64,000 nucleotides of DNA from Mesoterricola silvestris. Its GTDB lineage: Bacteria; Acidobacteriota; Holophagae; Holophagales; Holophagaceae. The position numbers and the translations under genes were made by a program. This document shows, in pieces, positions 11,872 to 60,632 of the stretch (position 1 is its first letter; each line of letters starts with the position of its first letter). The notes beneath the pieces were generated by a model. That model was not told the DNA's origin and did no database searches. It saw only the letters and a list, made by a program, of their open reading frames with translations. The stretch is taken from contig NZ_AP027080.1 of NCBI RefSeq assembly GCF_030295405.1, forward strand, positions 1,922,001 to 1,986,000, written 5' to 3'.

Positions 11872-12410
11872 AACCCATGGAACTCATTGAACAGGGCCGG
11901 TTCCTCGGCGAGGAGTTCCTGCTCTGGCTCTGGATGCGCGGCCTCAAGGAGGGCGGCGTCAGCGGCCTGGACGGGGACCAATCCGCCTGCTTCGTGGACG
12001 ACGCCATGCAGCTGGTCACGGAAAGCGGCGACGTGAAGGAGCTGAGCCTGCGCAAGGGCAATCCCGCGGAGAGCCGCGAGGCCTTCGAGGCCCTGAGCCG
12101 GGGCATGCGTCCCGCCAAGGCCAAGGTGCGCCTCCTCTCCGGCGACATGGAATGGACGTTCACGCTGGGGGCCGCGGGCCTGGAGATCAGCACCATGAAG
12201 CTGCCCCCCACCCAGGCCAAGGATCCCCAGGGCCGCATCGCCGACCGGCTCTTCCTGCTGGAGGAGGGCACCTCCCACCTGGAACGGCGCTTCCAGGCCT
12301 TCCTGGAGGCCCGGGCCCAGGATCCCGAGGCCATGGAGGAGAGCATGCGGGAGTGGGTGCGCGCATCCCTGGCCGGCGTCTCCGGCGAAGAAGTGCCATG
12401 GGAGGGCTGA
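11868..12410 (+). CDS. Conserved-looking protein of unknown function coupled to rdgC
   Basis: A 180-residue protein, predicted alpha/beta and soluble. It starts with an amphipathic helix (FLGEEFLLWLWMRGL), followed by an acidic segment and several beta-like stretches (VRLLSGDMEWTFTLG). No catalytic motif or metal-binding site is evident. The ATG overlaps the rdgC stop by four bases, and its 3' end overlaps the amidase gene by 13 bases. This suggests that it works with RdgC, for example as a partner subunit. I do not recognise the family. Confidence 0.75.
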   Translation: MKPMELIEQGRFLGEEFLLWLWMRGLKEGGVSGLDGDQSACFVDDAMQLVTESGDVKELSLRKGNPAESREAFEALSRGMRPAKAKVRLLSGDMEWTFTLGAAGLEISTMKLPPTQAKDPQGRIADRLFLLEEGTSHLERRFQAFLEARAQDPEAMEESMREWVRASLAGVSGEEVPWEG

Positions 12411-14056
12411 GGGCGCTGGCCTTCGCCGCCGCGGCGGGCTTCGTGGCCCTGGCGGCCCCGGCCACGGCGGAGGTCAAGGCCAGGCTCCCCAAGGGCGGCG
12501 CGGCCCGCATCCGCCTCGTCTTCCGGCAGGGCGTGCTGGTGGAGGCCCCGAAGCTGCCCCGCAGGTTCCTGGCGGCCCCGGCCTCCGGCTGGGCCAGTTT
12601 CCAGGACCTCACGCCGGAGGGCAGGCTCTGGGCCCTCCACGCCCTGTTCCCCGAGGACCGGTGGTCGGCCTCGGAGGTGCGCCACAAGGTGCGCTGGCCC
12701 GAACTGGAATCGGTGTGGCTCATGTCCGCGCTCTTCGTGGGGCACGGCCAGCACTACGACAAGCTCCAGGCCGCCAACCCCGCCCGGCCCGAAAAGCTGA
12801 GGCTGGGTGACGTCTGGGTGATCCCCCGCACCCTCCTGGCCCGGGAGCTGGGAGGCCGGGGCCAGGCCAAGGTGGACCGCAGCCAGCCCGAGGACGGCCT
12901 GGACGACGAGGCCCGGGTCGCCGCCTACCGGGCCCTGCTCACCTTCGGCGAGGACGCCCAGGGCAAGTACGCCGCCTACCACCTGCGCAAGGGCGAGGCG
13001 CTCTACACGGCCGTCGTCATGCGCTACACGGACCAGGTGGACCCCAAGGGCGTCAACGACCTGGCCCTGGAGATCGCGCGGCGCAGCGGCATCGAGGACG
13101 TGCGGGCCATCCAGCCCGGGCAGCTCATCAAGATCCCCCAGACGCTCCTGGCCGATCCCTTCCAGGCCGAAGGGTCCGTGGCCCTGGCCGAGGAGCGGGA
13201 GGTCCGCGCCGAGGTGCGGCGCACCCCCGCCGTGGAGGCCGGACCCCGCCTCAAGGGCATCCGCATCGTCCTGGACGCCGGCCACGGCGGCGTGGACAAG
13301 GGGGCCGCGGCCAACGGCGCGTGGGAATCCGACTTCGTCTACGACATCGCCATGCGGGTGCGCAGGATCCTGGAGCAGGACACGGAGGCGGTGGTGTCCA
13401 GCACCATCCGCTACCCCAGCATCGGCTTCAAGGTCCGCGAGAGCATCGTCCGCCCCACCCACGACGCCGAGATCCTCACCACGCCGCCCTTCGCCAACGA
13501 CGGCGAGAGCCCGAACGCCGTGAGCGTGCACCTGCGCTGGGTGCTGGCCAACGACCTCTTCGCGGCCTTCGCCCGCGCCGGCGACGCCCGCAAGACCCTC
13601 TTCATCAGCTTCCACGCCGACAGCCTCCACCCCTCGGCCCGGGGCACCATGGTCTACGTGCCCGGCGCCTCCGGCGTGCCCTCCAGCTTCGCCCTGGGCG
13701 ACCGCCGCGCGGCCAGGGTCAAGGAGATGAAGGTGGGCGCCCGGGTCGCCTTCACCGCCAAGGAACGCCTCCAGTCCGAAGCCCGCAGCCGCCTCTTCGC
13801 GGAGGCCCTCCTGAAGACGCTGGGCCAGGACGATCTCCCCGTCCACGGAAACCGCCCCATCCGCAACGTCATCCAGCGCTCCGGCAAGAGCTTCGTCCCC
13901 GCCGTCATCCGCTACAGCGCCGCGGCCACCAAGGTGCTGGTGGAGGTGGCGAACCTCACCAACGAGGACGACGTGGAAAACCTCAAGGACCCCGCCTTCC
14001 GGGAGCGCTACGCCGAGGCCGTGGTGAACGCCGTGAAGGCCTATTACCGGAGCTGA
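12398..14056 (+). CDS. N-acetylmuramoyl-L-alanine amidase (Amidase_3) with LysM-like repeats
   Basis: A secreted zinc amidase that cleaves the bond between muramic acid and the stem peptide in peptidoglycan. It has an N-terminal signal peptide (about 1-24), two LysM-like wall-binding segments (about 103-147 and 193-250), and an Amidase_3 domain (about 288-550). The zinc ligands are visible: His in DAGHGG (295), Glu in WESDF (310) and His in SFHAD. The catalytic Glu is in VEVANLTN. The 552-residue length is larger than typical AmiA/AmiC because of the N-terminal binding region. The start overlaps the previous gene. Confidence 0.9.
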   Translation: MGGLRALAFAAAAGFVALAAPATAEVKARLPKGGAARIRLVFRQGVLVEAPKLPRRFLAAPASGWASFQDLTPEGRLWALHALFPEDRWSASEVRHKVRWPELESVWLMSALFVGHGQHYDKLQAANPARPEKLRLGDVWVIPRTLLARELGGRGQAKVDRSQPEDGLDDEARVAAYRALLTFGEDAQGKYAAYHLRKGEALYTAVVMRYTDQVDPKGVNDLALEIARRSGIEDVRAIQPGQLIKIPQTLLADPFQAEGSVALAEEREVRAEVRRTPAVEAGPRLKGIRIVLDAGHGGVDKGAAANGAWESDFVYDIAMRVRRILEQDTEAVVSSTIRYPSIGFKVRESIVRPTHDAEILTTPPFANDGESPNAVSVHLRWVLANDLFAAFARAGDARKTLFISFHADSLHPSARGTMVYVPGASGVPSSFALGDRRAARVKEMKVGARVAFTAKERLQSEARSRLFAEALLKTLGQDDLPVHGNRPIRNVIQRSGKSFVPAVIRYSAAATKVLVEVANLTNEDDVENLKDPAFRERYAEAVVNAVKAYYRS

Positions 14057-14057
14057 C

Positions 14058-14270
14058 GTGATCGTCTACGCGCGCATCAACAACATCGGGTGGGCGCACC
14101 TCTGGACCTCCCGCGAGGCCTACGAGGACGGCGAGGCCTCCGTGCACTTCTTCAATTCCCGGATTGATCCGCGGTGGCAGGAGCTGGTGCTCACCGAAGA
14201 CCAGCGCACCCGGCTGGCGGCGGGGGAACTGGTGGAGATGGAGGACCCGGGGTACCTGGAAGGTTCCTAG
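14058..14270 (+). CDS. Small protein of unknown function, last gene of the PP2C-rdgC-amidase operon
   Basis: A 70-residue acidic protein, rich in Trp, Glu and Arg, with no signal, membrane segment or cysteine. It starts with GTG one base after the amidase stop. The stop is followed by a long-hairpin repeat in the convergent gap. The family is not recognised; the coupling and the plausible composition argue that it is real. Confidence 0.6.
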   Translation: MIVYARINNIGWAHLWTSREAYEDGEASVHFFNSRIDPRWQELVLTEDQRTRLAAGELVEMEDPGYLEGS

Positions 14271-14336
14271 GTTCCGACTCACCCGAACGATCCCTGCCGA
14301 AGCCAACCGATAGCCATCCCGGGAGGACTGCGGTCT

Positions 14337-14529
14337 GGCTCGTCGGCCGGGAACGGGCAGCGTTCGAGGGCTCATCCCCTTCATCCTGTTCATCCCATTT
14401 TCATCCCTGTTCCCGCAGGGCCAAAGCAGGGATGGGTCGGCGCACGCGGATCAACGACGCGCCGGCCCACTTCATCGCTGGCCCTGCGGGAACAGGGATG
14501 AAAAAGGGATGAACAGGATGAAGGGGATG
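14337..14529. repeat. Long-hairpin repeat element, copy 1 (family A)
   Basis: Two 51-nt arms (14373-14423 and 14479-14529) form an inverted repeat with a single mismatch. The interior also carries a shorter, imperfect hairpin. A short conserved block (GGCTCGTCGGCCGGGAACGG, 14337-14356) precedes the left arm, as in the other copies. It fills the convergent gap between the small protein at 14270 and the TPR gene ending at 14557. Copies 2 and 3 are at 27080-27270 and 59536-59744. Confidence 0.9.
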
Positions 14530-14556
14530 AAAGAGGGGATCAGCCTCAGGGCCTCC

Positions 14557-16311
14557 CTACAGCGTCAATCGCCTTTCCAGGGAGGCGCGCTCGGCCTTGA
14601 ACCCGGCCACTTCCCTGGCTTCCTTCAGGGTCGCCAGGGCCGGTCCCTGCTGGCCCAGCCGGGCCTGGCAGGTGGCGCGCATGAGGGCCACCCAGCCCTG
14701 GTTGGCGGCGGTGGGATTTGTGGGGTAGAGGGCCAGGGCGGCGCGCCATTCCCCGGCCCGCATGCGGTGGTCGGCGGCCAGGAGGGTCAGGGGTTCCTTG
14801 TCGGCGGGCTTTTCCGGGGATCTGGCGTGCCAGGCCTCGATGTCCTTGGCGCGGGCCTCGGGCTTCTCCCCTTCGTCCAGGGGGCGGCACAGGTACAGCA
14901 TCAGGGCCTGGATGCGCTCGGGCCCGGGGCGGGCCTTGGCAAGGGCGGCGCGGGCCTCCTTCCAGTGGCGCAGGGCCACCTCCGCCTGGGCCCGCAGGAG
15001 GCTCTCCCGGGGGCCGGAGGCCCGGGGCGGCAGCAGGGCCAGGGTGCCCTCGGGGTCGGTGCCGGGGTTCAGCCCCTCCAGGGCGGCCTTGGCCAGGGCG
15101 GGCTGCTCCTTGGCGGGGACGGCCCGGGCCATGGCGCGGGAGGCCTCGGTGAGGCCCTTGCGGGCCAGGGCGCGGGAAAGGTCCGCGCGCTGGGCGGGTT
15201 TCAGGGAGAGGATGCCCTCGGCGTCCAGGATGGGCAGGAGGCGCTGGGGTTCCTGCCTTTCCAGGCACTCCCTCACCAGGCCCCGCACGGCCTCGGCCCG
15301 CAGGTCGGCCACGGGCTTGCCTTCCCCGGGCCCGGGTTTGGTGGCCCGGAACTGGCCCACGGTGTCCAGGGCCGCCTGCCAGTGGCCTTCCTTGAGGGCG
15401 ATGCGCAGGTTGATCATGAGGGCCCGCCGGGTGGCATCCTCCCTGCCGCCGGCCTTCTTCACCCGGGCCAGGAGGGCCTGGGCGTCGGGGTAGCCTTCGG
15501 CGTCCTTGGGGGGCAGGGAGCCGTCCGTGAGCAGGGTGGCCAGGGCCATGCGGGCCTCGTCGGCCTCGGGGGCGTTGGGCTTTTCCTCGATGAGCTTCTG
15601 GAAGGCCCGGGCGGCGTTGCGGGAATCGCCCGTGGTGCCCAGGAGCTTGCCCCAGGCCAGGTTCAGCCGGGCCAGGTAGGTTCCCCGGGGATAGAGCCTT
15701 CGGTAATCGGCCAGGACACCCTCGGCCTCGGAGCGCTTTTCCGCCGCGCACAGGGCTTCCATGATGCCCACCAGGCCCTTTTCCGTGGGCCTGGAGAGGC
15801 CCAGGGGCTTGAGGCCCCGCACGGTTTCGATGCCTTCGGCGGCCCGGCCCTGGTCGGCCAGGCACCAGAGGTACATCTCCTGGCACCGGCGGATGGTCTC
15901 GGCGGGAAGGTCGGCGGCCAGGGCCTTGGTGAGCCGGGACTCGGCCTCCTTGGGCCGGCCCCGGTCCAGGGCGGCCTGGGCCATGGCGGGCTGGGCCTCG
16001 GGCAGGTAGGAGGATTTGGGCCAGGTGGTCTCCAGCTTGTGGAAGGAAACGGCCGCGCGAGCGGTATCCCCCATGCGGTCCTGGAGGAAGCCCTGGGCGA
16101 AGAGCACCGTCTCCCGCTCCTTGGCGAAGGTGCTCTTGAAGTGGTAACCCTCCAGCTGGTTCAGGACGTGCCGCTGGAATTTCGCGTCGTCCGAGGCCAT
16201 GGCCTGGCGGGCCAGGGCCTCCGCCTGTTCGTCCGTCATCCGGGGCGCCTTGGGTTCCGCCGCGCCCGCCACCAGGGCCACCACCAGGAGGGCGGCGGTG
16301 AGTCCCCTCAC
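14557..16311 (-). CDS. Exported TPR-repeat protein
   Basis: A 584-residue protein with an N-terminal signal peptide (about 1-20, RGLTAALLVVALVAGAA). It is almost entirely helical with repeated A..L..A/G motifs, consistent with about ten TPR or Sel1-like repeats, probably periplasmic. There is no lipobox Cys and no catalytic motif. The GTG at 16311 overlaps the stop of the response-regulator gene (GTGA), so it is translationally coupled to it. It sits at the end of the flagellar-export directon, but nothing in its sequence proves a flagellar role. Confidence 0.8.
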   Translation of the reverse strand: MRGLTAALLVVALVAGAAEPKAPRMTDEQAEALARQAMASDDAKFQRHVLNQLEGYHFKSTFAKERETVLFAQGFLQDRMGDTARAAVSFHKLETTWPKSSYLPEAQPAMAQAALDRGRPKEAESRLTKALAADLPAETIRRCQEMYLWCLADQGRAAEGIETVRGLKPLGLSRPTEKGLVGIMEALCAAEKRSEAEGVLADYRRLYPRGTYLARLNLAWGKLLGTTGDSRNAARAFQKLIEEKPNAPEADEARMALATLLTDGSLPPKDAEGYPDAQALLARVKKAGGREDATRRALMINLRIALKEGHWQAALDTVGQFRATKPGPGEGKPVADLRAEAVRGLVRECLERQEPQRLLPILDAEGILSLKPAQRADLSRALARKGLTEASRAMARAVPAKEQPALAKAALEGLNPGTDPEGTLALLPPRASGPRESLLRAQAEVALRHWKEARAALAKARPGPERIQALMLYLCRPLDEGEKPEARAKDIEAWHARSPEKPADKEPLTLLAADHRMRAGEWRAALALYPTNPTAANQGWVALMRATCQARLGQQGPALATLKEAREVAGFKAERASLERRLTL

Positions 16312-16940
16312 GGCTTCCACCCCGCGAGGAGGGCCTTGCGCGCCGCGCTGAAACGCTCCTCGTCCAGGATGCCCCGGGCCCGGAGATCCTTGAGCAGCTG
16401 GAGGCTCCCGGCTTCGGGCGTGCGCGGATCCATGCGCTGGGCCAGCATTTCCATGCGGCCCTGGATGGCTTCCAGGCGGCCGATGCGCTCCTCCAGCTCC
16501 CGCACCCGGGCCGCGAGGCCGTCCCGCTCGCGGATGAGGTGGGCCCGCTCCACGATGCGCCGGAGGGTCTGGCGGAAGGCCTCGATCTGCAGGGGCTTGT
16601 TCACCAGGCCGTAGGCTCCCTTGTCCATGGCCTCGGTGGCCTCCCGCACCGTGCCGTACCCGCTCAGCACCAGGACGGTGCAACTGGGGTTCCGGGCCAG
16701 GGCGGCCCTGAGCACGTCCATGCCCGATTTTCCCGGCATCACCAGGTCCGTGAGCACCAGATCGAAGGGCGGATGGATCTGGCCGATGAGCTCGTCGGCC
16801 TCCTCGCCGGAGGAGGCGGGGGTGACCGTGAAGCCTTCGGCTGTCAGGAGTTCCTGGAGGGTCTCCAGGAGGATGAGGTCGTCATCCACCAGGAGGAGGC
16901 GTTGGGGGGGAAGGTGGGAGGGGATGATGGGGGGTGGCAA
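16308..16940 (-). CDS. Response regulator with coiled coil and SHOCT-like C-terminus
   Basis: A 210-residue protein with a CheY-like receiver domain (about 14-125). The acidic pocket is VDDD (18-21), the phospho-acceptor is D65 (TDLVMPG), S93 is the switch residue and K115 the conserved lysine (NKP). A coiled coil follows (about 135-172), then a short helical pair resembling a SHOCT domain (about 178-210, LLKDLRARGILDEERF). It has no DNA-binding or enzymatic output domain. The only usable start is TTG at 16940, because an in-frame stop lies three codons upstream; the ribosome-binding site is weak. It lies 83 bases after flhB on the same strand. Confidence 0.85.
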   Translation of the reverse strand: MPPPIIPSHLPPQRLLLVDDDLILLETLQELLTAEGFTVTPASSGEEADELIGQIHPPFDLVLTDLVMPGKSGMDVLRAALARNPSCTVLVLSGYGTVREATEAMDKGAYGLVNKPLQIEAFRQTLRRIVERAHLIRERDGLAARVRELEERIGRLEAIQGRMEMLAQRMDPRTPEAGSLQLLKDLRARGILDEERFSAARKALLAGWKP

Positions 16941-25803: not shown

Positions 25804-27048
25804 TTGAAGGTCCTGGTGGCCGGGGGCGGGGCCGCGGGCATGATCGCGGCCTGGCGCGCGGCGAGCGCGGGCTTCGACACCACCCTCCTGGAAGCCAACG
25901 ACCGCCTCGGCATGAAGATCCGCATCAGCGGCGGCGGGAAGTGCAACATCACCCACGACGGGCCCATGGCCTCGGTGCTGGCGGCCTTCCCCCGGGCCCA
26001 GGCCCGTTTCCTGCGCCCGGCCCTCTTCGCCTTCACCAACCGGGACGTGCTGGACCTGCTGGCCCGGGAGGGCGTCCACGCCCAGGCCCGGGACAACGGC
26101 CGGGTCTTCCCGGTGGACGGCCCGGGCTCGGCCGCCAAGGTGACGGCCGCCTTCGAAGCCCTGGTGCGCCGGGCGGGGGTCCAGGTTCGCCTGGGGGCGC
26201 GGGTGCGGGCCCTGGAGGGCCGGGCGCCCCGGCTGGAGGCCCTGGTGCTGGAGGACGGCACCTGGCTGCGGGCGGACCGGTTCATCCTGGCCACCGGCGG
26301 GGCCAGCTATCCCAGGACGGGCACCCGGGGCGAGCTCCTGGCCGCCCTGGGGGCCCTGGGCGTGCCCGTGGCCCCCTGGTTCCCGGCCCTGGCCCCCATT
26401 CCCCTGAAGGCCCCCCGGCCGGAATGGGAGGGCATCCCCCTGCGGGAAGGCGCCCTCCTCCTCAAGGCCGGCCCCGGCGCCAAGGTCCTGGCCCGGTACC
26501 CGGGGGATGTCCTCTTCACCCGGGCCGGGATTTCGGGTCCGGCCGCCCTGGAATTGAGCCGCCCCGTGGAGGCCGCCCGCCGGGACGGGGCCGCGTGGCT
26601 GGGCTACGAGCTGGCCGCCGGGGATCTGGACGGGGACCTGGTGGCCCTGCAGCGGGAGAACCCCCACCTGGCCGTGCGCACCTGGCTGGCCCGGTGGCTC
26701 CCCGAACGCATGTGCGCGCCGGCCCTGGGGATGCTGGGCCTCGCCCCCGACCAGCGCATGAAGGACCTGCCCCGGGCCGGCCGGAAGGATCTGGCCGCCC
26801 TCCTTGCCGCTTTTCCCCTGGGTGAGCCCGGCCGGGTGGATCTGGAGAAGGGGGAGGTCAGCGCGGGCGGCGTGCTCCTTTCCGCCGTGGATCCCCGGAC
26901 CCTGGCCGTCAAGGGCTGGGAGAACCTGCGGGTGTGCGGGGAACTGCTGGACGTGGACGGGCCGGTGGGCGGCTACAACCTGCAGGCCGCGTTCAGCACG
27001 GGGTACCTGGCGGGTTCCTTGGCCGAGGTTTCGACCCACTCCACCTAG
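25804..27048 (+). CDS. NAD(P)/FAD-dependent oxidoreductase, HI0933/BaiN-RdsA family
   Basis: A 414-residue flavoprotein with an N-terminal dinucleotide-binding loop (VAGGGAAGM), the family motif [11 protein letters not shown], a second FAD contact [11 protein letters not shown] and a C-terminal [12 protein letters not shown]. Members include BaiN-type reductases, but most have no proven substrate. The frame has no ATG near the expected start; TTG at 25804, directly before [11 protein letters not shown], is the likely start, with a weak ribosome-binding site. It is divergent from purE and followed by a long-hairpin repeat. Confidence 0.85.
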
Positions 27049-27079
27049 CGTTATCGATGCCAGAGGATGGCAACCGTGG

Positions 27080-27270
27080 GGCTCCTCGGCCGGGAACGGA
27101 CTGAATGCGATCGCCCATCCCCTTCATCCTGTTCATCTGATTTTATCCCTGTTCCCGCAGGGCCAGAGCCGGGATGGGTCGGCGCATGCGGATCCAGGAC
27201 GCGCCGCCCCATCTCATCGCTTGCCCTGCGGGAACAGGGATCAAATTGGATGAATGGGATGAAGGGGATG
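27080..27270. repeat. Long-hairpin repeat element, copy 2 (family A)
   Basis: Arms at 27116-27165 and 27221-27270 form an inverted repeat with several mismatches, more decayed than copies 1 and 3. The upstream block GGCTCCTCGGCCGGGAACGG (27080-27099) and the central GGGATGGGTCGGCGCATGCG are retained. It fills the convergent gap between the flavoprotein and the beta-lactamase gene. Confidence 0.9.
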
Positions 27271-27302: not shown

Positions 27303-28142
27303 TTACCTCGGTAATTTAGAAACGATGCGCCCCACTTCTTCCAGGATGGCGTCCCTGGCCTGGGCGTCCCCCTTGGCCCCGGTCAGGTAGGCCGCGATGT
27401 AGAGGGGGGAGCCGCCCTGGGGGATGGCCACGGCGATATCGTTGGCGATCCCGGATTTCTCGAACCCGGACCCGGTCTTGTCCTGGATCTGCCAGGAGGC
27501 GGGAAAACCGGCGCGCAGGCGATGGGTGCCGGTGGTGCAGGTCGCCATCCAACCCGCCAGACGGCGCTGGGAGGCCGGAGAGAGGGTCTTGCCCGCCAGC
27601 AGTTCCCGGAGGGTCCGGGCCATGGCTTCGGGGGTGGTGGTGTCGCGGGGATCCCCGGGGGGCACGTCGTTGAGTTCGGGCTCCTTGCGGTCCAAGCGGG
27701 TGACGGGGTCGCCCAGGCTCCGGGCGAACACGGTGACGGCCCCGGGGCCCCCGAGGGTGTCCAGGAGCAGGTTGGCGGCGGTGTTGTCGCTCACCTGCAC
27801 GCTGGCGGCGCACAGCTCCTCCAGGGTCAGGGCGCCCTCGGCGGCCCGGGCCCGGGTGACGGGGGCGTAAGCCAGGAGGTCCTTCTCCCCGTAGGGCACC
27901 CTGCGGTCCAGGGCCGCCCGGCCCGCGTCCACCCGGAACAGCACGGCCCCGGCCAGGAGGACCTTGAAGGTGCTGCAAAGGGGGAAGCGCTCCCGGGCGC
28001 GGTACTCCAGGAGCTTCCGGCCCCCGGCGTCCAGGACGCACACGCCCAGGCGCCCGCCGCTCCGGGCCTCCAGGGACCGCAGCCCCGGGGCCTTCGCGGC
28101 CAGGAGCGTGCCCAGCAGCGCCAGGGCCCAGGCGATCTTCAC
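27303..28142 (-). CDS. Class A (serine) beta-lactamase
   Basis: Hydrolyses beta-lactams in the periplasm through an acyl-serine. A signal peptide (about 1-16) precedes a 279-residue chain with all four class A motifs: S57-T-F-K60, S118-D-N120, E154-P-E-L-N158 (the Omega-loop general base) and K222-T-G224. The segment HRLRAGFPASWQIQDKTGSG resembles CTX-M-like and other class A enzymes. A Cys precedes the active serine, but no partner Cys follows KTGSG, so the carbapenemase-type disulfide is not expected. The ATG overlaps the cheZ-like stop by four bases. No mobile element is adjacent; it looks chromosomal and resident. Confidence 0.93.
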   Translation of the reverse strand: MKIAWALALLGTLLAAKAPGLRSLEARSGGRLGVCVLDAGGRKLLEYRARERFPLCSTFKVLLAGAVLFRVDAGRAALDRRVPYGEKDLLAYAPVTRARAAEGALTLEELCAASVQVSDNTAANLLLDTLGGPGAVTVFARSLGDPVTRLDRKEPELNDVPPGDPRDTTTPEAMARTLRELLAGKTLSPASQRRLAGWMATCTTGTHRLRAGFPASWQIQDKTGSGFEKSGIANDIAVAIPQGGSPLYIAAYLTGAKGDAQARDAILEEVGRIVSKLPR

Positions 28143-56797: not shown

Positions 56798-58063
56798 ATG
56801 TCCCAGCGCGAGGTGTTCCTTGCGGCTCAGCGAACCATCGCCATGGTGCTGGCGGGAGGCCGCGGCAAGCGGCTCCACGACCTGACCCGGCGCCTTTCCA
56901 AGCCCGGCCTGGCCTTCGGCGGGAAGTACCGCATCATCGACTTCACCATGTCCAATTGCGTGAATTCCAATATCCGCAAGATCCTGGTGGTCACCCAGTA
57001 CAACTCCCACAGCCTGCTGGAGCACCTGCAGTTCGGCTGGACCTTCCTCAATGGGAAGTTCAACGAGTTCATCCACGTCCTTCCGGCCCAGCAGAGCCTG
57101 GAGAGCGACGCGTGGTACAGCGGCACCGCCGACGCGGTGTACCAGAATCTCGAGACCATCGGGGCCCACCGTCCCGAGAACGTGCTGGTGCTGGCGGGGG
57201 ACCATATCTACAAGATGGACTACCGCCGCTTCCTGGAGGACCACCTGGAGAAGGACGCGGACCTGACGATCGCCTGCCTTGAAGTGCCCCTGGCCGACGC
57301 CCGGGAATTCGGCGTGGCCGAGGCCGACGCGTCGGACCGCATCGTCTCCTTCGTGGAAAAGCCCCAGCAGCCCACCCCCGTGCCGGGCCGGCCGGGCTAC
57401 GCCTTCGCGAGCATGGGGATCTACCTGTTCAAGGCCGATTTCCTGTACGCCGAACTGGCGCGGGACGCGGCGGACCCGACGTCCAGCCACGATTTCGGCA
57501 AGGACGTCATCCCCTACCTGGTGCCCCGGGCCCGGGTCTACGCCCACCGCTTCAACCGCAGCCACATCCGCAACATGGACAAGCCGCCCTACTGGCGGGA
57601 CGTGGGCACCGTGGACGCGTACTGGGAGGCCAACATGGACCTCACCAACGTGGACCCCGACCTGAACCTCTACGACTACGACTGGCCCATCTTCACCCAC
57701 CAGGAGCAGCTCCCGGCGGCCAAGTTCGTGCACAGCGGCCCCCACCGCAACGGCGTGGCCATCAGCAGCCTGGTGTCGGCGGGGTGCATCGTTTCGGGGG
57801 CCACGGTGCACCGCTCCCTGCTCTTCAGCAAGGTGCGGGTCCATTCCCACGCCTACCTCCACGAGGCGGTGGTGCTGCCCGGGGCGGACATCGAGGAGCA
57901 TGCGCGGCTGCACCGGGTGATCGTGGACCGGAACTGCCGGGTGCCCATCGGGCTGGTGGTGGGGGAGGATCCGGAGGAGGACGCGCGGCGCTTCCATCGC
58001 ACGCCGGGAGGTGTAACCCTGATCTCCCAGCGGATGCTGGACAACCTGCAGGAAGGCCGATGA
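56798..58063 (+). CDS. glgC: Glucose-1-phosphate adenylyltransferase GlgC
   Basis: Makes ADP-glucose, the glycogen precursor. It has the nucleotide loop MVLAGGRGKRLHDLT, PLKPAV-like SKPGLAFGGKYRIIDF, the SGTADAVYQN substrate loop, IYKMDY, FVEKP, FGKDVIP and YWRDVGTVDAYWEANMDL (limits about 265-282). A left-handed beta-helix C-terminus follows. Length 421. ATG at 56798; GAGG seven bases upstream. It overlaps glgA by four bases. Confidence 0.96.
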   Translation: MSQREVFLAAQRTIAMVLAGGRGKRLHDLTRRLSKPGLAFGGKYRIIDFTMSNCVNSNIRKILVVTQYNSHSLLEHLQFGWTFLNGKFNEFIHVLPAQQSLESDAWYSGTADAVYQNLETIGAHRPENVLVLAGDHIYKMDYRRFLEDHLEKDADLTIACLEVPLADAREFGVAEADASDRIVSFVEKPQQPTPVPGRPGYAFASMGIYLFKADFLYAELARDAADPTSSHDFGKDVIPYLVPRARVYAHRFNRSHIRNMDKPPYWRDVGTVDAYWEANMDLTNVDPDLNLYDYDWPIFTHQEQLPAAKFVHSGPHRNGVAISSLVSAGCIVSGATVHRSLLFSKVRVHSHAYLHEAVVLPGADIEEHARLHRVIVDRNCRVPIGLVVGEDPEEDARRFHRTPGGVTLISQRMLDNLQEGR

Positions 58064-59508
58064 AGATCCTCCACGCCGCCACGGAACTGTTTCCCTACGT
58101 GAAGGTGGGAGGCCTGGGCGACGTGCTGGCCGCGCTGCCCGGTGCCCAGCGGACCCTGGGGGCGGACGCCCGGATCCTCCTGCCGGGCTACGGGGCGCTT
58201 CTGGCCCGGATCCGGGACCTGGAACCGGCCGGCGGCTTCCCGGACCTCCTGGGGCAGGGGGAGGCGCGCCTGCTGCGGGGCGCGACCGCGGACGGGGTGC
58301 CCGTGTACCTGCTGGACCATCCGGGGCTGTACGATCGCGCGGGCGGTCCCTATGCGGAGTACGGGGACAGCCACCTGCGCTTCGCCGCCTTCGCCTGGGC
58401 GGCGTCCCAGCTGGGCCGCAACGGCGACTGGGCCGGATGGCGCCCGGACGTGCTCCAGGTCCACGACTGGCAGGCCGCCCTGGCTCCCGCGTACTACGCC
58501 CAGGATCCGGGCCGGGTCCCCCTCACGGTCACGACCATCCACAACCTTTCGTACCAGGGCATCTACCCCGCCCCCCTGCTGCCGGAACTGTGGCTGGGCC
58601 CCAGCATCTTCCACACGGAAGGGGCCGAGTTCTACGGCAAGATCAATTTCCTCAAGGCCGGACTGGCCTTCGCGGACCGCATCACCACCGTGAGCCCCAC
58701 GTACGCCAAGGAGATCCAGCAGCCGGAGGCGGGAAGCGGCCTGGACGGGCTCCTGACCCATCGCCGGCGGGACTTGGCGGGCATCCTCAACGGCGTGGAC
58801 AACGCCATCTGGAACCCCGCCACAAGCCCCCACCTGGAACACCACTTCGACGCCCGGCACCTGTCGGGCAAGAAGCTCGACAAGAACCTCCTGCAGCGGG
58901 AGATGGGCCTGGACGAATCCCCCGGCGACCCGGTGTTCGGGGTGGTGAGCCGTCTGGCCGAGCAGAAGGGCCTGGACCTGGTGCTGGAGAACGTGGCCTA
59001 CCTGCTCCAGCTCAACGCCCAGCTGGTCATCCTGGGCACCGGCGACCCCGTGCTGGAGGAGGGTTTCGCCGCCGCCGCCAAGGCCCATCCCGGCCGCGTG
59101 GCCTGCGCCCTGGCCTACGACGAGGGCCTGGCCCACCGCATCCTGGCCGGCTCCGACGTGATGCTGGTGCCCAGCCGCCAGGAGCCCTGCGGCCTCACCC
59201 AGCTCTACGCCCTGCGCTACGGCACCCTGCCCCTGGTGCGCCGCGCCGGGGGCCTCGCCGACACCGTGGTGGACACCGACGCCCAGTCCCTGGTGGATTC
59301 CACCGCCACCGGCTTCGTGTTCAAGGAGGCCAGCAGCTGGATCCTGGGGGAGACCATCGGCCGCGCCTGCCGGCTCTACCGGGAGGACCCCCGCACCTGG
59401 ACCCGCATCCAGCGCCACGCCATGGCGCAGAATTTCAGCTGGAAGGCCAGCGCGAAGGAATACCTGGAGCTCTACGAAGGGATGATGCGGAAGGCCAAGG
59501 GCGAGTAA
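58060..59508 (+). CDS. glgA: Glycogen synthase GlgA
   Basis: Transfers glucose from ADP-glucose to glycogen chains (GT5). The N-terminal KVGGLGDVLAALP (ADP-glucose loop; Lys15), VHDWQAAL, TVTTIHNLSYQG, and the C-terminal ILNGVDNAIWNPATSP, SRLAEQKGLD, PSRQEPCGLTQLYALRYGTLPLVRRAGGLADTV (limits about 385-417) are canonical. Length 482. The ATGA overlap couples it to glgC. A family A hairpin repeat follows. Confidence 0.96.
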   Translation: MKILHAATELFPYVKVGGLGDVLAALPGAQRTLGADARILLPGYGALLARIRDLEPAGGFPDLLGQGEARLLRGATADGVPVYLLDHPGLYDRAGGPYAEYGDSHLRFAAFAWAASQLGRNGDWAGWRPDVLQVHDWQAALAPAYYAQDPGRVPLTVTTIHNLSYQGIYPAPLLPELWLGPSIFHTEGAEFYGKINFLKAGLAFADRITTVSPTYAKEIQQPEAGSGLDGLLTHRRRDLAGILNGVDNAIWNPATSPHLEHHFDARHLSGKKLDKNLLQREMGLDESPGDPVFGVVSRLAEQKGLDLVLENVAYLLQLNAQLVILGTGDPVLEEGFAAAAKAHPGRVACALAYDEGLAHRILAGSDVMLVPSRQEPCGLTQLYALRYGTLPLVRRAGGLADTVVDTDAQSLVDSTATGFVFKEASSWILGETIGRACRLYREDPRTWTRIQRHAMAQNFSWKASAKEYLELYEGMMRKAKGE

Positions 59509-59535
59509 TCCCTGGCGGATCCCGTAATACTGTCC

Positions 59536-59744
59536 GGCTCCTCAGCCGGGATGGGGCTGAGTTGGAGGCCTCATTCCCTTCATTCCCTTCATCCCCTTCA
59601 TCCTGTTCATCCGATTTAATCCCTGTTCCCGCAGGGCCAGGGCAGGGATGGGTCGGCGCATGCGGATCAGCTACGCGCCGACCCATCCCATCGCTGGCCC
59701 TGCGGGAACGGGGATTAAATCGGATGAACAGGATGAAGGGGATG
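59536..59744. repeat. Long-hairpin repeat element, copy 3 (family A)
   Basis: Arms 59590-59639 and 59695-59744 form a 50-bp inverted repeat with one mismatch. Nested inside is a perfect 15-bp stem (59645-59659 with 59675-59689). The upstream block GGCTCCTCAGCCGGGATGGG is at 59536-59555. It fills the convergent gap between glgA and the phosphodiester-glycosidase-like gene. Best-preserved of the three copies. Confidence 0.9.
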
Positions 59745-59759
59745 AAAAAAGAATCACCT

Positions 59760-60632
59760 TCAGGCCGCGGGGGGGAGCGGCCTCGCGAAGACGCCCAGGT
59801 TGTTCCCGTTGGAGCGCTGCTGGGGCTCCCCGCCGGCGTTGCTGGTGGAGCCCAGGGCCACGCCGCTGGGGTGGTTCACGAGCCGGGGCTGGCCCTCCAC
59901 CTCCCGCACCAGGGCGGTGGAGCCGCCGCCGTCCAGGTTCAGGCCGTCGGCGGCGCCGAAGCGCAGCAGCCAGTCCACCACCTCGTCCAGGGTGGCGCCC
60001 ACGCTGTAGCCGGCCTGGCGGCCGTCGATCACCAGGAGGATCAGGTACCGGCCGTCCCGGCTGAGGCCCACCGCCGTGCGGGGGTGGGTGGCCTTGTTGA
60101 AGGGGATGGGGGCGACGCTCCGCACGCCGTCCGCCAGGATCACCTCGGTGCCGGCCACGGCGGTCCAGAGGCCGCTGGTGCGGAAATCGGGGCCGGTCTT
60201 CAGGATGGTGGCGAAGTTGTCCCGGGTGGCCACCAGGGCGGCCTGGCCGATGCCGTGGGTGGCGGCGGGGGAGACCACCTGGCCGCCGGACATGGCCAGG
60301 CCCAGGAGGTCCTTGTCCCCGGGGGTGCAGCAGGGGTCGTAGAAGTTGGCGTTGATCGCCACCTGCAGGCGGTGGTGGGCCAGGAACTCCCCCGTGGTCT
60401 CGCTGGTGGTCTCCTTGGAACCGGCGTGGGGCGTGGCGAAGAGCCGCACCCCCGGGGCCCGGAGATCCACCCGCACGGCAAAGGCCTTCTGGCGGCGGGG
60501 CTCCGGGGCCTCGCCCGAGGCCAATTCCACCCCCTGGTAGGCGGGTACCCAGGGTTCCACCTTGACCTGGGCCCGCAGGGGCGCGAAGGCGACGAGGCAG
60601 GCGATGGCCCGCAGGGCCCCTGGGAATCTCAT
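59760..60632 (-). CDS. Exported phosphodiester-glycosidase (NAGPA-like) domain protein
   Basis: A 290-residue protein with a signal peptide (about 1-21) and a NAGPA-type domain: VAINANFYDP, GLAMSGGQVVSPA, RTAVGLSRDGRYLILLVIDGRQ and the family signature ADGLNLDGGGSTAL. Characterised relatives remove capping sugars or act on exopolysaccharide. The Cys-Cys pair (DPCCTPGD) may be oxidised in the periplasm. It is 13 bases downstream of an outer-membrane protein gene and probably cotranscribed. Confidence 0.85.
   Translation of the reverse strand: MRFPGALRAIACLVAFAPLRAQVKVEPWVPAYQGVELASGEAPEPRRQKAFAVRVDLRAPGVRLFATPHAGSKETTSETTGEFLAHHRLQVAINANFYDPCCTPGDKDLLGLAMSGGQVVSPAATHGIGQAALVATRDNFATILKTGPDFRTSGLWTAVAGTEVILADGVRSVAPIPFNKATHPRTAVGLSRDGRYLILLVIDGRQAGYSVGATLDEVVDWLLRFGAADGLNLDGGGSTALVREVEGQPRLVNHPSGVALGSTSNAGGEPQQRSNGNNLGVFARPLPPAA

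Follow-up and report, generated by a model that had tools for sequence, protein, structure and literature searches.

A probable CTAG-targeting MITE family with a long hairpin as its cargo in Mesoterricola silvestris

Three hairpins between genes of the window

Three copies of a long hairpin, here called family A, lie in the window, that is, the whole 64,000-nt stretch of the Mesoterricola silvestris genome that was analysed (NZ_AP027080.1, positions 1,922,001 to 1,986,000). They are found at 14337-14529, 27080-27270 and 59536-59744, where the first-pass annotation had placed them.

Copy 1 has to its left an Amidase_3 gene on the plus strand (12398-14056; Pfam Amidase_3, E 1e-22), with a small predicted ORF (14058-14270, plus strand) intervening, and to its right a predicted TPR-like gene that faces it on the minus strand (14557-16320; gene call, weak Pfam match). 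According to the gene call, the stop codon of the small ORF coincides with the CTAG of a left terminal repeat (CTAGGTTCCGACTCACCCG.., 14267-14286, plus strand), which was recognised from the sequence, the gene call and the consensus terminal repeat. It is followed on the plus strand by an asymmetric left arm (14287-14371; left-arm alignment of 49 copies), the hairpin core with its outer stem and nested hairpin (14372-14528, genome 1936372-1936528; covariance-model score 177.7 bits) and a right remnant (AAAGAGGGGATCAGCCTC.., 14529-14559; assigned from the sequence and the right-flank types), the right terminal repeat having been lost.

Copy 2 is faced by an HI0933-like flavoprotein gene (25804-27048, plus strand; Pfam E 1.7e-61, gene call) and a beta-lactamase-family gene (27303-28142, minus strand; Pfam E 9.5e-47). 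On the plus strand, it comprises a left terminal repeat with three mismatches (CTTGGCCGAGGTTTCGACCCACTCC, 27018-27042, genome 1949018-1949042), a left arm (27043-27114; sequence and left-arm alignment) and a core (27115-27269; 168.7 bits). Copy 3 is faced by a glycogen/starch synthase gene (58060-59508, plus strand; Pfam Glyco_transf_5, E 1.6e-68, gene call) and a NAGPA-domain (phosphodiester glycosidase) gene (59760-60632, minus strand; Pfam E 1.7e-25). Also read on the plus strand, it consists of a left-arm remnant without terminal repeat (CTGTCCGGCTCCTCAGCCGGGATGGGGCTGAG.., 59530-59569; sequence and left-arm alignment), extra 9-nt units that extend this arm (TTCATTCCC, 59570-59588; direct reading and repeat search) and the core (59589-59743, genome 1981589-1981743; 185.0 bits).

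The core is a near-palindrome of about 155 nt with a nested hairpin. In the consensus, its outer stem is made of ATCC words (CCCCTTCATCCTGTTCATCC..), its inner stem pairs CTGTTCCCGCAGGGCC with GGCCCTGCGGGAACAG, and the nested hairpin reads GATGGGTCGGCGC..GCGCCGCCCCA. The inverted arms span 72 nt at 88% complementarity in copy 1, 89 nt at 79% in copy 2 and 72 nt at 94% in copy 3, and the folding z-scores (-13.7, -11.3 and -17.7, respectively) are equalled by no shuffle. Two further details of the first-pass annotation are borne out, namely an upstream GGCTC..TC..GCCGGGA block in all three copies and matched changes on the opposite arms of copy 1 (CATTTTC/GAAAAAGG) and copy 3 (GATTTA/TTAAATCGG). 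The extents it gave belong to real copies but cover no more than the inner portion of a longer element.

The covariance-model search that had been proposed for this genome was carried out with a model trained on 30 copies, and it yields at least 81 distinct copies in 4.99 Mb, the three of the window among them; the list counts both strands of each palindrome, and the 81 distinct sites are a lower bound. A search of the window against Rfam gave no match, nor did a search of plasmids and phages with copy 1. The description of the hairpin as dispersed, mobile and without a named family stands. A young subgroup is formed by the copies at genome positions 374086, 1699526 and 2542095 (G000:C1), whose left arms are 88-89% identical and which have a right flank of their own.

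Terminal repeats and empty sites

The hairpin is carried as cargo within a larger element, most copies of which are truncated. Intact copies carry terminal inverted repeats of about 25 bp, CTAG-CCCAA(N)GTTCCGACCCACCCC, with CTAG at each end, and the 49 copies with an asymmetric left arm give as their common end CTAG-CCCAAGGTTCCGACCCACCCC on the left and its inverse on the right. The terminal-repeat pattern has 45 matches in the genome versus one for a reversed-pattern control. Of these matches, 43 border a catalogued copy; a match at 2241937, outside the catalogue, adjoins a hairpin of this type in shortened form. Among the 81 listed copies (at least 81 exist), both ends are kept by seven and one end by 29, while the remaining 45 have neither end by the pattern test and owe their membership to the core. 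Within the window, copies 1 and 2 retain the left terminal repeat (14267 and 27018) and copy 3 is truncated.

Comparison with the relative Holophagaceae bacterium UBA692 (L283; genome also G005/G041), of which 579 kb were examined, shows that the element is absent at all five orthologous sites that are comparable on both flanks (flank identity 85-91%). At these sites UBA692 has gaps of -7, 7, 10, 101 and 1786 nt, three of them of 10 nt or less, versus the 252-315 nt inserted in M. silvestris. Particularly, at site 1724168 UBA692 reads GGGCTAGAATC, with one CTAG, and M. silvestris reads GGCCTAG-[element]-GGGCTAGAATT, with two, which is the sole clean CTAG duplication. A search for the core in UBA692, whose assembly is 83% complete, gave one weak match (E 1.5e-4). 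At the ortholog of the copy 2 gap (G000:C1:1949115, window 27115), UBA692 carries a different, ATCC-rich sequence of 101 nt (L403), so that this convergent gap may have received more than one kind of hairpin.

Family A displays the traits expected of a MITE: terminal inverted repeats, a short and non-coding body (323-457 bp between the ends in copies that have both) and a target-site duplication with an empty orthologous site (1724168; at two more sites the relative shows gaps of 7 and 10 nt). Taken together, these features very probably identify family A as a MITE (a short DNA transposon that is not autonomous) whose cargo is the hairpin core. Family A is a transposable element and not a new kind of RNA, and its definition as a new MITE family is well supported; searches of the open-licence literature, which offers partial coverage, gave no description of family A, of IS1634 MITEs or of CTAG stop-codon targeting. 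One observation, however, speaks against this history. The left arms are about 70% alike, whereas the relative is about 88% identical, so that insertion after the split is hard to reconcile with the data, unless the elements from which the copies derive differed from one another beforehand.

The core and the hairpins around GxxExxY genes

Relative to the left arm, the core lies one way in 27 copies and is flipped in 22 (49 copies, with a few labels near threshold). Its orientation is unlinked to left-arm similarity, as 25 of 49 nearest neighbours agree versus 24.2 expected. When the same 28 copies are compared, the core is 86.2% identical versus 69.5% for the left arm, and the distances measured on the two parts show a weak correlation (r 0.23, P 0.0135).

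Similar arms surround genes elsewhere. GxxExxY genes (PF13366, PDDEXK_3) lie inside imperfect inverted repeats in 29 of 40 cases, above the 99% shuffle level of 13, compared with two of 44 control glycogen-synthase genes; the sample covers L191-L227 in the relatives G007-G023 (e.g., L209, L200, L192 and L208), other genera of the family. The arms flanking these genes are built of quasi-periodic words of about 9 nt (CACGAAGG, ACGCGAATG, CACAGAGGG and TTCATCCCC). Likewise, eight of 12 S23 four-helix genes (L063-L074) are enclosed by inverted repeats. The literature search, restricted to partial, open-licence coverage, found nothing on GxxExxY inverted repeats or on GxxExxY function.

In this regard, the core could tentatively be read as a mobile hairpin in its own right, derived from a GxxExxY (PDDEXK_3) hairpin module but without the gene, that settled in the MITE and spreads by itself into matching hairpins. 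Such a reading is compatible with the MITE explanation, to which it adds a second layer. It is in keeping with a core that occurs in either orientation and is more uniform than the MITE flank, with ATCC-type arms that flank GxxExxY genes or stand alone in other genera, and with the match of the right arm of the core to DNA downstream of GxxExxY genes in the same genus (score 19-32 versus shuffle maxima of 14-18). The left arm, however, matches the DNA upstream of GxxExxY genes only at shuffle level, a lone core insertion with clean borders was not found, and the GxxExxY copies of this genome ride a different, IS5-like element. More broadly, long hairpins made of words of about 9 nt may possibly represent a widespread, undescribed class of mobile modules, some with a GxxExxY or S23 four-helix-bundle gene enclosed by the arms and many gene-less. 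The core of family A would then be a gene-less one that was captured by a CTAG-targeting MITE and is now exchanged between copies in either orientation. This link could open the common GxxExxY family to study.

Two observations concern the GxxExxY genes of the genus itself. The full-length genes of M. silvestris, at G000:C1 139924, 841045, 2781700 and 3276391 (L077-L080), sit inside an IS5-like element, after its transposase stop codon and before its right end (GGTTTGCCGACAGCCCCTAG); this element, too, ends in CTAG. In the same-genus genome G001 (L085-L090), one transposase element carries as passengers some 30 truncated fragments of GxxExxY (profile positions 1-54), nearly identical to one another, which constitute a recent burst.

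Gene ends, base pairing and the probable parent

Gene calls made with a GC3-seeded codon-usage model, and checked against Pfam, show convergent neighbours for 57 of the 81 listed copies, tandem neighbours for 22 and divergent neighbours for one, one case being undecided. The element appears to target CTAG, a word that is scarce here and clusters at stop codons. The window contains 14 CTAGs versus 177 expected from base composition (about 13-fold rare), and of the 45 CTAGs at element ends, 29 serve as the stop codon of the predicted gene next to them. Because CTAG is its own reverse complement, TAG can be retained by each of two convergent genes once the word has been duplicated. Duplication of the word would leave the neighbouring gene or genes with a stop codon, rendering the insertion harmless and producing the convergent-gene bias. 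This bias follows from CTAG being rare and located at stop codons, and the location of the copies needs no selection for terminator function. Family A shows how a transposon can be directed to gene 3' ends, and made nearly harmless, by a rare target word that is at the same time a stop codon.

A family of bidirectional transcription terminators, spread by insulating convergent genes, would be expected at such places as well, and the hairpin is indeed long and GC-rich. We consider this explanation unlikely, as the location bias is already accounted for by CTAG at stop codons, the 59400-59900 interval around copy 3 contains no site with a hairpin and a U-tract, and the relative UBA692 does without the element. 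As a side effect, the element might hinder read-through from one convergent gene into the other.

The matched arm changes had been taken by the first-pass annotation as covariation that maintains a paired structure, with the copying of one arm from the other as an alternative. The first part holds to the extent that two-sided changes exceed chance, with 18 cells changed on both sides in 30 copies versus 7.3 +/- 2.0 in shuffles. The signal is nevertheless weak: in the same copies it is confined to five of 53 pairs, mostly variable letters between the ATCC words, and the RNAalifold covariation term is -0.11. Among the 81 listed copies, an arm matches its own partner at 83.2% of positions versus 79.2% when partners are permuted (300 permutations, none above 80.0%). 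With gap columns included, the two arms of a copy thus disagree at about 17% of their positions. The mismatches of these copies comprise 76 G-U versus 98 A-C pairs (P = 0.11), with no wobble bias, unlike REPs, for which frequent G-T pairing has been reported (PMC3733652).

Selection for base pairing would suit a structured RNA, be it an mRNA 3'-end stabiliser, an RNase III site or a regulatory RNA. The very stable folds, the excess of two-sided changes, the better conservation of the core than of its flank and the position between convergent or tandem genes, where transcription would reach, are all consistent with it. Nevertheless, this seems quite improbable, as the absence of wobble bias gives no indication of RNA selection, the arms diverge within copies, the window has no Rfam match and the hairpin is missing at the tested orthologous genes of the close relative UBA692.

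The copying alternative fits better, given the random flipping of the core. Near-identical inverted arms would permit the core to flip, and sequence to be copied between arms and between copies, through recombination or template switching. Arm copying and flipping would together explain why changes on one arm are matched on the other, why the core is oriented at random and why it varies less than the sequence around it. DNA-level copying accounts for the flipped, uniform core better than RNA selection does. It is also possible that the uniformity of the core stems from selection on the hairpin itself, with which the weak correlation of distances is compatible. Family A offers a concrete example, open to testing, of bacterial hairpins whose apparent RNA covariation probably reflects the copying of arms and the flipping of the core at the DNA level.

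A REP/BIME-type palindrome mobilised by a RAYT (Y1 tyrosine transposase) shares with family A a dispersed, intergenic distribution biased to gene 3' ends (PMC3733652) but is a highly improbable explanation, since family A is several-fold longer than the 20-40 bp of a REP, its terminal repeats and CTAG duplication point to a DDE element, and the search for a RAYT-type mobiliser that the first-pass annotation suggested gave no Y1_Tnp match in the single-contig genome, versus matches in five of 14 controls.

The mobiliser is likely an IS1634-type DDE transposase rather than a RAYT, and comparison of the sequences points to an IS1634-family insertion sequence as the probable parent. The transposase that moved family A would now be gone from M. 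silvestris, where a search for IS1634 transposases gave no match and an autonomous parent was not found. In the same-genus genome G001, four loci fuse transposase codons 1-58 directly to the hairpin core, and the copies checked have the same terminal repeats as family A. The 58-aa remnant is 44-57% identical to IS1634 transposases, with 57% to that of G007; on its own, it is too short to match NF033559 and gave no significant match in NCBIfam. The C-terminal part of the G007 transposase does match NF033559 (IS1634; E 3.8e-21), and the left end of this element reads CAGCCCAACTTTCCTACCCC. The left ends of the IS1634 elements in G003 and G082 also begin with words similar to those of family A, and among G003, G007 and G082 there is no intact IS1634 element with identical ends. 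What speaks against this parent is the target, as family A duplicates the 4 bp of CTAG and not the 5-6 bp expected of an IS1634 derivative. A CTAG (YTAR) target is typical of IS5, and the assignment of the parent family could therefore be wrong. The IS5-like elements that carry GxxExxY genes were considered as the parent and ruled out, because their ends differ and the G001 relics point to IS1634.

When compared with known systems, family A shares with the IS5 family the 4-bp CTAG target but has ends unlike those (CTAG-GGGCTGTCGGCAAACC) of the genome's own IS5-like elements. With the IS1634 family, it has in common terminal repeats that begin alike (CTAG-CCNAA-GTTCC) and relics in G001 that keep the first 58 transposase codons inside family A ends; it differs in having no transposase and in its 4-bp CTAG duplication, versus 6 bp in the Geobacillus IS1634 element ISGka5 (PMC8024623). 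REP/RAYT palindromes are likewise intergenic and biased to gene 3' ends, whereas family A is longer, has CTAG terminal repeats and occurs in a genome with no RAYT. The MITEs RUP, Correia/NEMIS and ERIC resemble family A in being short and non-coding, with terminal inverted repeats, target duplication, strong secondary structure and many dispersed intergenic copies. Unlike these MITEs as they have been described, family A has a CTAG target that is often a stop codon and a modular hairpin cargo of about 155 nt that is found in both orientations.
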